Part shown: positions 2,923-63,594 of the stretch, one piece after another
How positions within the stretch are numbered: the stretch's first letter is position 1
Layout: every line of letters starts with the position of its first letter
Assembly: GCF_030413635.1 (NCBI RefSeq)
Contig: NZ_CP129235.1
Coordinates: forward strand, 3,534,001 to 3,598,000
Reading direction: 5' to 3'
Source of the DNA: Planococcus shenhongbingii
GTDB lineage: Bacteria; Bacillota; Bacilli; Bacillales_A; Planococcaceae
Length of the DNA: 64,000 nucleotides
Translations under genes and position numbers: made by a program
Notes under the pieces: model-generated
Told to the model about the DNA's origin: nothing
The model's database searches: none
Seen by the model: the letters and a program-made list of their open reading frames with translations, nothing else

Positions 2923-2945
2923 ATGCAGTTAAAAAGGAAATAGCA

Positions 2946-3046
2946 TGCGTTCCGCCACTTCCCTCCGCTGGTATGATCCAGATCAGGTTCAAAGGGTCCG
3001 AGCTTATGCTCGTCTCAGCCGATATCCGGCTCCCCTAGTGGTGTTT
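2946..3046 (-). promoter_or_regulatory. TPP riboswitch (THI element)
   Basis: The minus strand shows the canonical THI-box blocks in order: GGGGAGCC, GGCTGAGA, ACCCTTTGAACCTGATCTGG, ATACCAGCGGAGGGAAGTGG. It precedes the terminator at 2884-2922 and tenA, so it should repress tenA-thiM-thiD-thiE in response to thiamine pyrophosphate. Confidence 0.97.
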
Positions 3047-29622: not shown

Positions 29623-29661
29623 GAAGCTAATTCAATATTTTCTTGCTCCAGGTTTTATGGA

Positions 29662-29850
29662 GTGAGGATAGAGGTGCAAAAACCATCAGTATATAAATCG
29701 AGGAGTATGAGCTCCGATGACGTTTATGGAAAGGGGGATTTGCCGAAGCGGTGAGACACTCATAGTCGACTCCGCTGGGTCTGCATCTAATAAATGCAGG
29801 ACTGTCATATAGGCGACTATATGGAGGGCTATCTGACGCAAAGAAACGGT
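29662..29850 (+). promoter_or_regulatory. Lysine riboswitch (L box)
   Basis: The conserved core appears in order: AGAGGTGC, ATCAGTA, GGAAAGGGGGATTTGCCGAA (29729 on), GGTCTGCAT...ATGCAGGACTGTCAT and GGAGGGCTATCTGACGC. It lies upstream of dapA with an intrinsic terminator between, so high lysine should stop dapA transcription. Confidence 0.97.
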
Positions 29851-59368: not shown

Positions 59369-60139
59369 TTATGCATCCTGCTCTTTCTTTTTCTTAACGC
59401 TGATCACCGCGCCTACCGCTACAATTGCAAGCAGCACGCCCCAGAAAATGAGTTTCCATTCCGCCGAATGGGCAAAGTCATAAGGCAGGATTCCAAGGTC
59501 TTTATGCGCTAGCGTAAGCACTAACAGCTTGACTCCTACCCAGCCGACGATCACAAACGCTGTGGTTTCCAATTGCGGATAGTTTGCCAGCAATTTGACG
59601 AATTTATGAGCGGCGAATCGCATAATCACGAGGCCGACCAATCCACCCGCTAACATCACTGCGAACTGTCCGGAGTTGATGCCGCCAATTTCACTGACAC
59701 CGAACAAATCCAAATGAGGCAGCGTAATGGCCAACGCCACTGCCGCAAGCATCGAATCGATGGCAAACGCGATATCCGCCAATTCAACTTTCAATACCGT
59801 CATCCAGAAACCGGAGCCTTTTGTCGCTTCCGGCTCGATGGAATGTTCTTTCCCTTTTCGCTGATCGTAAATGTGCTTAAACGCGATGAACAGTAAATAA
59901 GCTGCCCCCAGTGCCTGAATTTGCCACACATCCACCAATATCGTGATCATAAACAACGCCGCAAAACGGAACACGAACGCCCCCATCAATCCGTAAAACA
60001 AGGCTTTTTTCTGCTGCTCTTTCGGCAAGTGCTTGACCATGACCGCCATAACGACCGCGTTGTCGGCAGCCAACAATCCCTCCAGCGCCACTAGCACCAA
60101 AAGAACCCATAAATACTCCAATAAAATCGCTTCCATCAT
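59369..60139 (-). CDS. TerC-family membrane protein, probable Mn2+ exporter (YkoY/YceF type)
   Basis: 256 residues, about seven membrane helices. TerC signature: LLAADNAVVMAVMVKHLP near 22 and VELADIAFAIDSMLAAVA near 120, whose acidic residues form the ion path, plus a cytosolic charged loop (QRKGKEHSIEP). TerC proteins behind yybP-ykoY riboswitches export manganese, often to metallate secreted proteins. Exactly that riboswitch and its terminator lie directly upstream. AAAGGAGG stands 4 bases before the ATG at 60139 (a second ATG follows immediately at 60136). Confidence 0.9.
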   Translation of the reverse strand: MMEAILLEYLWVLLVLVALEGLLAADNAVVMAVMVKHLPKEQQKKALFYGLMGAFVFRFAALFMITILVDVWQIQALGAAYLLFIAFKHIYDQRKGKEHSIEPEATKGSGFWMTVLKVELADIAFAIDSMLAAVALAITLPHLDLFGVSEIGGINSGQFAVMLAGGLVGLVIMRFAAHKFVKLLANYPQLETTAFVIVGWVGVKLLVLTLAHKDLGILPYDFAHSAEWKLIFWGVLLAIVAVGAVISVKKKKEQDA

Positions 60140-60163
60140 TCATCCTCCTTTTAATTTTTGCCA

Positions 60164-60200
60164 ACAAAAAAGACCCTTGCCTAATAAAAGGCAAAGGTCT
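60164..60200 (-). terminator. Terminator of the manganese riboswitch
   Basis: Minus strand GAGACCTTTGCCT-tttatt-AGGCAAGGGTCTTTTTT, between aptamer and terC; Mn2+ binding should disrupt it. Confidence 0.9.
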
Positions 60201-60310
60201 CGCTAAGCAAAATTGTTTGCTATCACAACCGATGGCTACGAACCATGTAATGACGACTATGAAATAGGTTTCCCTACAGCTACTCCCCCTTGACATAAAG
60301 TCAAAGTCTA
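60186..60310 (-). promoter_or_regulatory. yybP-ykoY (manganese) riboswitch
   Basis: Minus strand contains AAGGGGGAGTAGCTGTAGGG, TAGTCGTCATTACATGG, GTTCGTAGCCATCGG and GCTTAGCGAGACC, matching the conserved yybP-ykoY core, with the 3' part overlapping the terminator stem as in the family's on-switches. A -10-like TATACT lies just upstream near 60330. Confidence 0.92.
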
Positions 60311-60467: not shown

Positions 60468-60500
60468 AAAAAAGGAGGTGTGTGCATTGGGAAGGGATTG

Positions 60501-60887
60501 ATGAAAATTGGCGAAATCGCAAAATTGAGTGGCGTGTCCACGAGAACCATTGACTATTACACAAATTGTGGGCTGTTGGCTGTTGAACGGTCAGAAGCCA
60601 ATTACCGGCTCTACCCTGACACCGTTCTGCACACCCTCGAACGGATTCAGTTTTTAAAAAAACAGCGCATGTCCATTGCCGAGATCCAAGAAATTCTTAA
60701 AGCGGGCGGCATGCCGGAAACAGAAGTGCTAATGGAAGATGTCATTGAAGAATTTGACTGCCTGCAGCGCAAGATTACGCGGCTGGAAGAACAATTGAAA
60801 GACGCACCCATTCATGTGAAAGTGCAAATCAGCAAAGCGCTGGAGAATAAAATGGCGGCGATCACCGCATTGCTCGCTTTGCTGTAA
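60501..60887 (+). CDS. MerR-family transcriptional regulator
   Basis: 128 residues. MerR winged helix at 1-70 (MKIGEIAKLSGVSTRTIDYY and YRLYPDTVLHTLERIQFLKK), then a long dimerisation helix (EDVIEEFDCLQRKITRLEEQ). The C-terminal part (about 105-128) is short, hydrophobic and lacks Cys ligands, so a metal or small-molecule effector cannot be read off. ATG at 60501 behind GGAAGGG. It ends 38 bases before the first CNNM gene on the same strand, so co-transcription with or control of the CNNM pair is plausible. Confidence 0.87.
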   Translation: MKIGEIAKLSGVSTRTIDYYTNCGLLAVERSEANYRLYPDTVLHTLERIQFLKKQRMSIAEIQEILKAGGMPETEVLMEDVIEEFDCLQRKITRLEEQLKDAPIHVKVQISKALENKMAAITALLALL

Positions 60888-60895
60888 TTAATTTT

Positions 60896-60928
60896 GGAGG
60901 TGAATCCCTTTTACAGGGAACATTAGTG
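60896..60928 (+). promoter_or_regulatory. Shine-Dalgarno separated from the start codon by a hairpin (CNNM copy 1)
   Basis: GGAGGTG (60896-60902) and GTG start (60926) are 23 bases apart. Between them TCCCT-TTTAC-AGGGA forms a 5-bp stem. Excluding the hairpin, 2 + 6 = 8 bases remain, the normal spacing. The same layout recurs at 62269-62303. Confidence 0.75.
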
Positions 60929-62230
60929 GATATAATTACAATACTGAATTTAGTGCTATTGGTCATATTAATCGGTTTGACCGCCTTTTTCGTCGGAGCC
61001 GAATTTGCGGTCGTCAAAATCCGCATGTCCCGCCTTGACCAACTGATAGCAGAAGGAAACAAAAAAGCGATAACGGCCAAAAAAGTAGCCAGCAACCTGG
61101 ACTATTACCTGTCCGCCTGCCAGCTGGGGATTACGGTAACTGCCCTTGGACTCGGGGCGCTCGGGAAACCGACCGTCGAGCGTCTGATGTATCCGATATT
61201 CGAATTCTTCGCCGTTTCCGATGCAGTGGCATCGGCGGCTTCCTATGCCATCGCATTTTTGCTTGTCACTTACTTGCACGTCGTGGTCGGAGAGATGGCG
61301 CCGAAAACTTTGGCAATCGAGTACGCCGAAAAAATGTCTTTGCTTCTCGCCCCGCCCCTTTACTGGTTCGGGAAAATCATGAAGCCATTTATCTGGGCTC
61401 TGAATGGTGCTGCCCAAGTTCTGTTGAGAGCATTTGGCGTACAGCCGGCCGGACAGGAACAGGCTTATTCGGAAGATGAACTGAAAATTGTCATGGCCCA
61501 AAGCCACGAAGGCGGGGCCATCAACGAAACCGAACTGTCCTATATGGAGAATGTCTTTACATTCGACGAACGCGCTGCCAAGGAAATCATGGTGCCCCGC
61601 ACGGAACTGGTGACACTCGACAAGGATATGCCGCAGGAAGAAATCATCCAAGTACTGGATGAAAATAATTATACGCGCTACCCGGTTACGGAAGATGGCG
61701 ACAAAGACCGCATCATCGGTTTTGTCAGCGCTAAAAAGATGCTTCCCCATATCGTGGCCGGCCGGCACTGGCAGCTTGCGGATTTTGTCCGGGAATTGCC
61801 GACGGTTTTTGAACAAACCGGCCTCCAGAACGCTCTTTTGAGAATGCAGCATGCCCATGTCCATATCGCCGTTGTGGCCGATGAATACGGCGGCACCGCG
61901 GGGATGATTACGCTGGAAGACATCCTGGAAGAAATCGTCGGCGAAATCCGCGACGAATTTGATGCCGATGAACAGCCGGATATCAGCCAAATCAGTGAAG
62001 ACCAGTACTTGATCAATGGACGGGTCTTGTTAAAAGATCTGGAGGAGCGTTTCGGCTTAATCTTTGATGAAAGCGAAGACATCGACACCATCGGCGGCTG
62101 GATTCATTACAGAAGCATGGGTGAAGTCCAACCCGGCGATACGCTCAGCAAAGACAACACCTTATGGACCGTCACCGAAATGGACCACCAGCAGATCAAA
62201 CAAGTCATGTTCCATCAGGAACTCTCTTAA
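60926..62230 (+). CDS. CNNM/CorC-family membrane protein (DUF21-CBS-CorC), copy 1
   Basis: 434 residues. DUF21 membrane domain at 1-190 with the family opening FFVGAEFAVVKIRMSRLDQL, LDYYLSACQLGITVTALGLG and HVVVGEMAPKTLAIEYAEKM. CBS pair at about 205-330 (VMVPRTELVTLD, YTRYPVTEDGDKDRIIGFV, GGTAGMITLEDILEEIVGEI). CorC_HlyC domain at about 345-430 (YLINGRVLLKDLEERFG, TIGGWIHYRSMGEVQPGD). Family members such as B. subtilis MpfA export Mg2+; older names are hemolysin/TlyC. GTG start behind the hairpin-separated ribosome binding site. Confidence 0.9.
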   Translation: MDIITILNLVLLVILIGLTAFFVGAEFAVVKIRMSRLDQLIAEGNKKAITAKKVASNLDYYLSACQLGITVTALGLGALGKPTVERLMYPIFEFFAVSDAVASAASYAIAFLLVTYLHVVVGEMAPKTLAIEYAEKMSLLLAPPLYWFGKIMKPFIWALNGAAQVLLRAFGVQPAGQEQAYSEDELKIVMAQSHEGGAINETELSYMENVFTFDERAAKEIMVPRTELVTLDKDMPQEEIIQVLDENNYTRYPVTEDGDKDRIIGFVSAKKMLPHIVAGRHWQLADFVRELPTVFEQTGLQNALLRMQHAHVHIAVVADEYGGTAGMITLEDILEEIVGEIRDEFDADEQPDISQISEDQYLINGRVLLKDLEERFGLIFDESEDIDTIGGWIHYRSMGEVQPGDTLSKDNTLWTVTEMDHQQIKQVMFHQELS

Positions 62231-62268
62231 GTTTGGAAACAGCTTATAAATGGAAGGAATTAATAATT

Positions 62269-62303
62269 GGAGGTGAATCCCTCATTGCGAGGGAACCATA
62301 TTG
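62269..62303 (+). promoter_or_regulatory. Shine-Dalgarno separated from the start codon by a hairpin (CNNM copy 2)
   Basis: GGAGGTG (62269-62275) and TTG start (62301) are 25 bases apart; TCCCTC-ATTGC-GAGGGA forms a 6-bp stem between them. Relative to copy 1 the stem has gained one C:G pair, a compensating double change, and the unpaired remainder is again 2 + 6 bases. Confidence 0.75.
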
Positions 62304-63356
62304 GATGGACAAATAACAATCAACTTACTGCTCATCGTACTGATGATTCTCGCGACCGCGTTCTTCGTCGGTGCCGAGTTCGCCATCTTGAAGGTGCGCA
62401 TGTCCAGGATCGACCAACTGATTTCAGAAGGCAATAAAAAAGCAGTACGTGCCAAAGAAGTGGCAAATAAACTGGATTACTATTTGTCAGCCTGCCAGAT
62501 CGGAATCACCATAACGGCCCTGATACTCGGGGCATTAGGGGAACCGACAGTCGAGCGCCTGCTGCATCCGGCATTTGAGTACTTTGCGGTGCCGGAAGCC
62601 TTGGCTACTGCCCTTTCTTACGCAATCGCTCTAGGAATCGTGACATTCTTGCACGTGGTCATCGGAGAACTGGCGCCGAAAACTTTAGCGATTCAGTTTG
62701 CTGAACGGATGACATTGCTGCTGGCTCCTCCGCTTTACTGGTTCGGAAAAATCATGAATCCATTTATTTGGCTGATGAACGGGTCTGCCCGTTTGTTATT
62801 AAAACTTTTCAAAGTCGAGCCATCAGGACATGAAGAAGCCCATTCGGAAGAAGAACTGAAGCTCATCATGGCGGAAAGCTATAAAAGCGGCGAAATCAAC
62901 CAGACCGAATTGACGTATTTAAAGAACATTTTCGCGTTTGATGACCGCATTGTCAAAAACATCATGATTCCGCGCGATCAAATGGTGACGGTCGATCAAG
63001 GACTATCACGCACGGAATTTTTTGAAGCACTGGATGAACACGAATACACACGTTACCCGGTCACTGAAGGCGGCAACAAAGACCGCATTCTCGGCTTTAT
63101 CAATACGAAAGAGCTGCTGACCAGCATGGCTGCCGGAAGAACGGAGGAGCCGGAGTCATTCATCCACAAAATGACAAGTTTCCCGGAAACCACACCGATC
63201 CAAAAAGTCCTGACGAAAATGCAGCAAAGCCGGATTCATATGGCCGTTGTAACGGGCAAAGACAGCCGCACTGTCGGACTCGTGACGATGGAAGATATTT
63301 TAGAGGAAATCGTCGGTGAAATCAGCGATGAATCCATCAGCATTGACCCAGCTTAA
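62301..63356 (+). CDS. CNNM-family membrane protein lacking the CorC domain, copy 2
   Basis: 351 residues. Closely similar to copy 1 across DUF21 (FFVGAEFAILKVRMSRIDQL, LDYYLSACQIGITITALILG, HVVIGELAPKTLAIQFAERM) and the CBS pair (IMIPRDQMVTVDQG, EYTRYPVTEGGNKDRILGFI, TVGLVTMEDILEEIVGEISD). It stops right after the second CBS domain (ESISIDPA), so the C-terminal CorC_HlyC domain of about 80 residues is missing. No frameshifted CorC remnant follows; a terminator does. TTG start as explained under 62269-62303. Confidence 0.88.
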   Translation: MDGQITINLLLIVLMILATAFFVGAEFAILKVRMSRIDQLISEGNKKAVRAKEVANKLDYYLSACQIGITITALILGALGEPTVERLLHPAFEYFAVPEALATALSYAIALGIVTFLHVVIGELAPKTLAIQFAERMTLLLAPPLYWFGKIMNPFIWLMNGSARLLLKLFKVEPSGHEEAHSEEELKLIMAESYKSGEINQTELTYLKNIFAFDDRIVKNIMIPRDQMVTVDQGLSRTEFFEALDEHEYTRYPVTEGGNKDRILGFINTKELLTSMAAGRTEEPESFIHKMTSFPETTPIQKVLTKMQQSRIHMAVVTGKDSRTVGLVTMEDILEEIVGEISDESISIDPA

Positions 63357-63378
63357 AATTTAAATTCTAGACACGCAA

Positions 63379-63416
63379 AAGAAGAGGTTGCCGATTGGCA
63401 ATCTCTTCTTTTTTTG
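63379..63416 (+). terminator. Intrinsic terminator after CNNM copy 2
   Basis: AAGAAGAGGTTGCC-gatt-GGCAATCTCTTCTT followed by T7. Confidence 0.88.
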
Positions 63417-63420
63417 ATTT

Positions 63421-63565
63421 CCAGCACTAATGCCAGCGTTGTTCACCAATACGTTTACCGTTCCGAATGCATTTTCCGGCTGTTCCATAACCGTAGCCCG
63501 TCCGCTTCGCTGGTAACGTTCTGTTTGACGAACAGCGCATTGCCAACGATTGCCTAGAGGAGCTG
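63421..63565 (-). pseudogene. Remnant of a short-chain dehydrogenase gene
   Basis: On the minus strand one frame reads ALFVKQNVTSEAD, and a base later the neighbouring frame continues ATVMEQPENAFGTVNVLV and then NNAGISAG: the central part of a FabG-like SDR with a one-base deletion near 63500 (GACGGGCT where GACTGGGCT is expected). Nothing before the fragment gives the TGxxxGIG motif and nothing after gives YxxxK; it ends at the CNNM terminator. A decayed fragment, distinct in sequence from the SDR trio at 35-38 kb. Confidence 0.7.
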
Positions 63566-63594
63566 CAGTCTTAAAAAAATCTTGCATAATGATA

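Follow-up and report, generated by a model that had tools for sequence, protein, structure and literature searches.

Hairpins between the Shine-Dalgarno sequence and the start codon of CNNM genes in Bacilli: putative split ribosome binding sites

INTRODUCTION

The M-box is a large aptamer that shuts off importers by transcription attenuation. According to the main text of PMC6711546, it acts on mgtE. The same text describes mpfB of Staphylococcus aureus, which starts with GUG; changing this GUG to AUG, or providing an initiator tRNA with a CAC anticodon, relieves the Mg2+ sensitivity of a strain lacking MpfA. That main text mentions no hairpin, stem-loop, Shine-Dalgarno sequence or UTR. A direct role of a hairpin in initiation has been described for phage T4 genes 38 and 25, in which a hairpin shortens the distance between the Shine-Dalgarno (SD) sequence and the start codon from 22 and 27 nt to 5 and 11 nt. 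Changes that destabilise these split sites lower initiation, and only close T-even phages share the gene 25 arrangement (review PMC3014915). Extended SD pairing is known to fix start-codon placement in S. aureus (main text of PMC13009471, in which the terms hairpin and stem-loop are absent). The literature that we searched, with subscription papers and supplements lying outside the search, reports no hairpin-bridged site on CNNM, CorC or MpfA genes.

Here we analyse the leaders of two CNNM genes of Planococcus shenhongbingii and of their relatives across Bacilli. The two genes lie in a 64-kb window (the whole stretch of DNA analysed, 64,000 nucleotides). A preliminary description of this DNA had noticed a small hairpin between the SD sequence and the start codon of both genes and had likened it to the hairpin of T4 gene 38.

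RESULTS

Two tandem CNNM genes and their leaders

The two genes are tandem paralogs with 58% protein identity. Copy 1 (60926..62230, + strand) starts with GTG and encodes 434 residues comprising CNNM, a CBS pair and CorC_HlyC, which is the MpfA-type domain set. Copy 2 (62301..63356, +) starts with TTG and encodes 351 residues with CNNM and a CBS pair; it lacks CorC_HlyC and does not have the MpfA-type set. Relatives with solved structures include CorC (4hg0) and 7m1t/7m1u. By family membership only, the products of both genes are putative Mg2+ exporters.

The leaders share one layout, in which GGAGGTGAA is followed by a 5- or 6-bp hairpin, 6 unpaired bases and a GTG or TTG start. In copy 1, GGAGG (60896-60900) leads through TGAA to a TCCCT stem, a TTTAC loop, an AGGGA stem, ACATTA and GTG at 60926. 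The corresponding elements of copy 2 are GGAGG (62269-62273), TGAA, a TCCCTC stem, an ATTGC loop, a GAGGGA stem, ACCATA and TTG at 62301. Both SD sequences (60896..60903 and 62269..62276, +) read GGAGGTGA, an 8-mer complementary to the 16S 3' end. The hairpins occupy 60905..60919 (+, 5 bp, arms 60905-60909 and 60915-60919) and 62278..62294 (+, 6 bp, arms 62278-62283 and 62289-62294). The distance from the end of GGAGG to the start is 25 nt in copy 1 and 27 nt in copy 2, and 10 nt in both once the hairpin is subtracted. Our recount from the end of GGAGGTG reproduces the 23 and 25 nt of the preliminary description, which drop to 8 in both leaders without the 15- and 17-nt hairpins, and the C:G pair by which the two stems had been said to differ is real.

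The copy 1 hairpin folds at -5.8 kcal/mol (p 0.04 against shuffles; p 0.013 in a separate window shuffle test), and that of copy 2 at -9.7 kcal/mol, a value matched by 0 of 200 shuffles and by 0 of 300 in the window test. Measured against dinucleotide shuffles, the folding of copy 1 is unremarkable (z 0.16 and -0.87) and that of copy 2 moderate (z -2.24 and -2.55). The real evidence for the predicted hairpin is comparative rather than derived from single-sequence folding, which is uninformative for copy 1. Strong SD sites in the window number 21 (11 with normal spacing, 5 long-spaced and 5 without a start), and among the 5 long-spaced sites a hairpin occurs only at CNNM copies 1 and 2.

Directly upstream of copy 1 lies a gene for a MerR-family regulator (60480..60887, +), whose TAA (60885-60887) stands 8 nt before the SD sequence; the gene order over 60480-63356 is MerR, full CNNM and short CNNM without CorC_HlyC. 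In 24 of 80 related Bacillales loci (see below), an open frame ends within 80 nt upstream of the SD sequence, and all 24 frames are MerR-like by eye. A terminator-like stem with a T run, identified by a pattern scan, follows copy 2 (63377..63412, +) and is the probable end of a MerR-CNNM-CNNM transcript; the scan gave 5 sites over both strands versus 3.9 expected from shuffles. A 75-aa frame on the opposite strand (63360-63587, -) resembles a gene remnant, and its VLVNNAG is presumably a short-chain-dehydrogenase-like motif.

Several riboswitch matches were seen elsewhere in the window. A strong match to the Mn2+ riboswitch yybP-ykoY (RF00080) at 60163-60300 (-) scores 31.6 bits (E 4.4e-7), below the gathering score of 45. 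It is accompanied by a terminator-like stem (60201-60170) and lies upstream of a membrane protein gene (59369-60139) that we take to be TerC-like. A lysine riboswitch (29661-29839, +) and a TPP riboswitch (2943-3046, -) score above gathering. For the CNNM leader element itself, a known riboswitch, the M-box included, was rejected: Rfam gave no match there at gathering or permissive thresholds and none in 20 other leaders. A terminator or attenuator was also rejected, as neither 60905-60919 nor 62278-62294 nor the leader of a paralog (L003) has a stem with a T run.

Hairpin leaders in the same genome and genus

With the copy 1 protein as query, six places were found in the same genome: its own locus, those of three close paralogs including copy 2 (57-60% identity), one distant CNNM at 27% identity, and one partial match (E 9.6e-4). 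All four close CNNM genes have the SD-hairpin-start layout. The stem of L003, CCCTCC/GGGGGG, differs in several pairs. The fifth, distant CNNM has GGAGG at a plain 8-nt spacing from TTG and no hairpin, if this TTG is its start. A covariance model of the leader (R1, described below) found exactly the four close CNNM leaders in this genome at E<=0.1. Of 46 genomes belonging to the genus, this one among them, 45 contain the exact pattern GGAGGTGAN{1,2}CCCN{3,12}GGGAA and none contains the reversed-pattern control.

We also surveyed 800 kb of the genome, where 224 strong SD sites were counted: 115 with a start at 4-14 nt, 25 with a start at 16-59 nt and 84 with none. The spacing mode of the 115 normal sites (4-14 nt by definition) is 7-8 nt. 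No bridging hairpin was found among the 25 long sites (out of 140 strong SD sites with a start); one of them has a good fold but leaves a 17-nt remainder.

Distribution across Bacilli

A protein-guided scan confirmed 266 relatives, and the best 80, which represent the nearer relatives, were kept as the Bacillales set (13 loci on the opposite strand were skipped during collection; the scripted start of L105 was corrected by eye). It includes Planococcus, Psychrobacillus, Paenibacillus, Saccharibacillus, Domibacillus, Sutcliffiella, Jeotgalibacillus, Kurthia, Caryophanon, Shouchella and others. The SD-hairpin-start layout is present at 80 of 80 loci of this set (the best 80 of 266 relatives). 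A second CNNM gene with a strong long-distance SD sequence lies downstream in 66 of the 80 loci, and 65 of these 66 second copies have a hairpin at p<=0.05. The hairpin noticed in the preliminary description is thus confirmed and occurs much more broadly than in two genes.

The Bacilli-wide set consists of 80 leaders hand-picked for spread; 20 were included mainly for having escaped R1. A hairpin is present in 68, of which 63 were assigned by script and five by eye only (L236, L242, L257, L283 and L285); the script had found 66 of 80, and L257, L258 and L292 were removed as wrong. The 63 scripted leaders span 16 families and 31 genera, related leaders and genomes not being independent of each other, and they beat shuffles in 53 cases at p<=0.01 and in 60 at p<=0.05. 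In the other 12 of 80 leaders the hairpin is absent or ambiguous. Among further Bacilli loci inspected by eye, 8 of 9 have a hairpin and L221 has none. In 25 CNNM loci from other Bacillota classes, whose starts were not settled by script, no hairpin was seen by eye. Because the hairpin is absent or ambiguous in these three groups (12/80, L221 and the 25 non-Bacilli loci), CNNM genes can do without it. Overall, the hairpin leader seems to belong to one CNNM subfamily and to be particular to Bacilli.

Two genera display unusual forms. In L251, L253 and L257, all from one genus, a very small hairpin (~3-5 bp) lies between the SD sequence and an ATG start, possibly as a minimal form or a decaying state; those of L251 (p 0.28) and L253 (p 0.18) are no better than shuffles. 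L187-L191, from another single genus, have the bulged stem UC(A)CCC/GGGGA in the same slot, with a GAAA loop in L188.

Conserved geometry and structure of the leaders

The geometry was analysed in 147 leaders (84 from the Bacillales set and the own genome, 63 scripted from the Bacilli-wide set). The distance from GGAGG to the start is 18-53 nt (mean 29.3, sd 7.27), and it narrows to 6-13 nt (mean 9.7, sd 1.18) when the hairpin is subtracted. It follows hairpin length with r 0.988 and a slope of 1.05. Since any fold within the spacer partly tracks spacer length, we ran a shuffled-spacer control. The sd of the remainder is 1.41 in the 63 Bacilli-wide leaders versus 7.9 after shuffling (the smallest of 100 shuffles giving 6.21), and 0.80 versus 3.70 in the other 84. 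When only the 126 distinct leaders are considered, the stem starts 4-5 nt past GGAGG in 116, and in 118 it stops 5-7 nt short of the start codon. The SD sequence reads GGAGGTGA in 90 of them and GGAGGTGT in 22, and their hairpins comprise 114 distinct sequences, 10-43 nt in length.

Both R1 and the covariation analysis were built on 49 aligned leaders: the 84 leaders reduce to 67 distinct ones, of which 18 out of register, mostly with a longer 3' spacer, were omitted. Over the 6 pairs of the alignment, 98% of cells can pair. Both sides are changed in 19 cells versus 4.0 after shuffling, and 0 of 500 shuffles reach 19; the covariation score is 0.259 versus 0.120, again reached by 0 of 500 shuffles, and slid controls stay at or below 0.083. 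These two values and the paired cells lie above all 500 shuffles and all slid controls. Two measures are weaker: 3 pairs changed on both sides (reached by 27 of 500 shuffles) and 8 further pair types (reached by 18 of 500 and equalled by one slid control). Two of the six pairs are invariant and as such uninformative on covariation. A covariance model across relatives had been proposed in the preliminary description, which regarded the lack of a conserved stem or of a constant remainder in homologues as evidence against its reading; on the 49 leaders paired changes exceed shuffles, and homologues keep both the stem and a near-constant remainder.

CNNM leaders missed by R1 have unrelated hairpins in the same slot. 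Examples are an 8-bp hairpin CTTTGTCC/GGACAAAG (L192), a 14-bp stem starting TTCTTTATG (L194), GGCTAGT/ACTAGCC (L204), CCTTCGTTCT/AGAACGAAGG (L248) and CCTATTTGCCG/CGGCGAATAGG (L288). We consider such unrelated hairpins in one slot to be stronger evidence of a kept structure than the covariation.

The model is nearly confined to CNNM genes. In 150 genomes of the order it gave 119 matches at E<=0.01, the cutoff to which the cross-check against CNNM genes was limited, and 118 of them are CNNM starts (114 by coordinates and 4, L321-L324, by reading the translation). The remaining match, L325 (E 0.006), lies before a different gene and lacks a hairpin. At E 0.01-0.1, no CNNM frame was found in the three matches that were read (L326-L328), and others lie at second CNNM copies. 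Matches occur in at least 60 of 150 genomes (E<=0.1) and at least 89 of 299 (E<=0.01), in overlapping samples; the counts are lower bounds because R1 misses lineages with unrelated hairpins. Of 20 long non-CNNM SD sites on the plus strand of Bacillales loci, none has a hairpin at p<=0.01.

Start codons

The 84 first-copy hairpin leaders of the Bacillales set and own genome start with TTG (62) or GTG (22) and never with ATG; among 66 second CNNM copies there are 65 TTG starts and 1 ATG. In the Bacilli-wide set, 64 of 68 hairpin leaders have TTG or GTG and 4 have ATG. With ATG in 4/68 Bacilli-wide leaders and 1/66 second copies, a strict rule of 'never ATG' was dropped. Leaders of the same set without a hairpin and with a readable start have ATG in 6 of 10 cases by eye. 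The resulting Fisher p of 1.4e-4 comes from a by-eye table, from which the ambiguous leaders L259 and L287 were left out, and counts related sequences as independent; the link between hairpin and non-AUG start is suggestive. Among normal strong-SD genes of the own genome, 30 of 115 have a non-ATG start.

DISCUSSION

We propose, with a probability of roughly 0.8, that the CNNM leaders are hairpin-bridged (split) ribosome binding sites like those of T4 genes 38 and 25. The T4-like reading of the preliminary description thereby holds up, as a conserved hairpin shortens the over-long distance between SD sequence and start, and homologous leaders keep the stem. Direct support extends to the structure, its position, the turnover of its sequence and length, and its linkage to one CNNM subfamily with mostly non-AUG starts. 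As we picture it, the 30S subunit would pair with the extended SD sequence (GGAGGTGA), and the next 10-43 nt would fold as a hairpin, mostly from 4-5 nt after GGAGG to 5-7 nt before the start. With the hairpin folded, the chain path between SD sequence and start would be ~9-11 nt, which is close to normal. The hairpin, still folded, would be kept by the ribosome outside the mRNA path, with UUG or GUG placed in the P site. Initiation would presumably proceed with the hairpin folded, and unfolding would lower translation. Together, the hairpin and the non-AUG start may lead to weak, strictly SD-dependent synthesis of the Mg2+ exporter. That weak initiation matters for the CNNM family is supported by S. 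aureus mpfB, because there the change of GUG to AUG relieves Mg2+ sensitivity.

Other explanations assign the hairpin a different role. It might be a Mg2+ or temperature switch, a possibility raised in the preliminary description: high Mg2+ or low temperature would be needed for folding, and the exporter would be made at high Mg2+. The stems in the window are short and CNNM/MpfA proteins export Mg2+ (main text of PMC6711546), but the folding energies of the spacers lie between -3.1 and -21.7 kcal/mol and reach -7 kcal/mol or stronger in 128 of 147 leaders, probably too stable to melt in most lineages, and no loop or stem sequence is common to different lineages, which makes such a switch unlikely. 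We would not expect, either, that the hairpin is a protein operator, is acted on by a helicase or governs mRNA stability, with the spacing as a by-product. A fixed-sequence binder is incompatible with 114 hairpin sequences among 126 leaders and with lengths of 10-43 nt, and a role of this kind leaves the constant remainder unexplained. What speaks for it is the raised level of S. aureus mpfA mRNA without the DEAD-box helicase CshB (PMC6711546; PMC5122736); this fits RNA-level control and may be indirect, a possibility also named by the authors of the 2016 paper.

It is quite improbable that the hairpin acts by hiding the SD sequence, either as the top of a longer stem or through a 5' arm that pairs with GAGG as a switch. 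GAGG of copy 2 can pair with CCTC, and wide-context folds pair SD bases partly: a mostly unpaired SD sequence is predicted in only 35 of 147 leaders (21/84 and 14/63), with unpaired medians of 0.38 and 0.36, which also counts against a bridged site. Against this, stem-extending pairing of the SD sequence and spacer flanks reaches -2.5 kcal/mol versus -4.0 kcal/mol in shuffles and is lower than shuffled in only 18 of 126 leaders. The longer stem is disfavoured, as the flanks pair less than shuffles; moreover, many 5' arms, by reading, are unable to pair with the SD sequence, and the hairpin is predicted with a probability of 0.5 or more in 141 of 147 leaders (84/84 and 57/63). The preliminary description also offered a leader peptide starting at the GTG of GGAGGTG, and translation could likewise begin inside the spacer. 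The 8-codon frame exists in copy 1 and ends in TAGTG, yet a frame of that length at this position occurs in only 4 of 84 leaders. The gene start lies in frame 0, 1 or 2 of that GTG in 31, 21 and 32 of the 84 leaders, the GTG frame is 3 to 17 codons long or stays open, and the SD sequence is separated from the start by in-frame stops in 66 of the 84 leaders and in 36 of the other 63. With frames and stops scattered and no conserved short frame before the gene in the 84 leaders, leader-peptide control was rejected and is very improbable. The tandem arrangement and 58% identity of copies 1 and 2 could also mean that a recent duplication copied a chance hairpin without function; given a position kept through sequence turnover over 16 families and 31 genera, compensatory changes and CNNM-specific occurrence, we assign this practically no weight. 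Leader peptide, SD sequestration and sequence-specific recognition are accordingly disfavoured relative to the split ribosome binding site.

A more speculative extension, attractive but in our view doubtful, is that Bacilli sense Mg2+ for its export through the ribosome itself, with neither a riboswitch nor a dedicated regulator. Mg2+ stabilises RNA folds, SD pairing and codon-anticodon pairing. A site that needs both a hairpin held by the 30S subunit and a UUG or GUG start should then gain use when Mg2+ is plentiful, and synthesis of CNNM exporters would scale with the Mg2+ state of the ribosome. The varied stability and unrelated sequences of the hairpins speak against sensing by melting and against a binder of specific sequence, while leaving sensing at the level of the ribosome untouched.

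If the split-site interpretation is correct, the bridged leader could explain the non-AUG starts kept by MpfA-type exporters, and it offers a concrete, cheap way to ask whether initiation controls Mg2+ export. The natural hairpins of 10-43 nt are a ready test set for what the 30S subunit holds between the SD sequence and the P site. Such starts may be misplaced by gene callers whose scoring includes SD spacing.

Hairpin-bridged sites are a phage T4 curiosity in the sources examined; here they appear widespread in a bacterial class. The architecture is known from T4, and its occurrence on CNNM genes is new relative to the literature searched, in those sources only. As in T4 genes 38 and 25, an over-long distance between SD sequence and start is restored to normal by the hairpin. 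Unlike the T4 sites, which belong to phage genes with AUG starts, the CNNM sites are chromosomal, mostly start with UUG or GUG and serve one protein subfamily; their predicted hairpins are unrelated in sequence and extend across much of the class. Long SD pairing is shared with the extended SD sites of S. aureus (main text of PMC13009471), and mpfB of that species, like most hairpin-leader CNNM genes, has a non-AUG start, which in mpfB limits a CNNM protein, the main text of PMC6711546 giving no reason for it. Like the M-box (ykoK leader), the CNNM element is found on Mg2+ homeostasis genes in Bacillales; unlike the M-box, it is a hairpin of 10-43 nt within the ribosome binding site of exporter-type genes.
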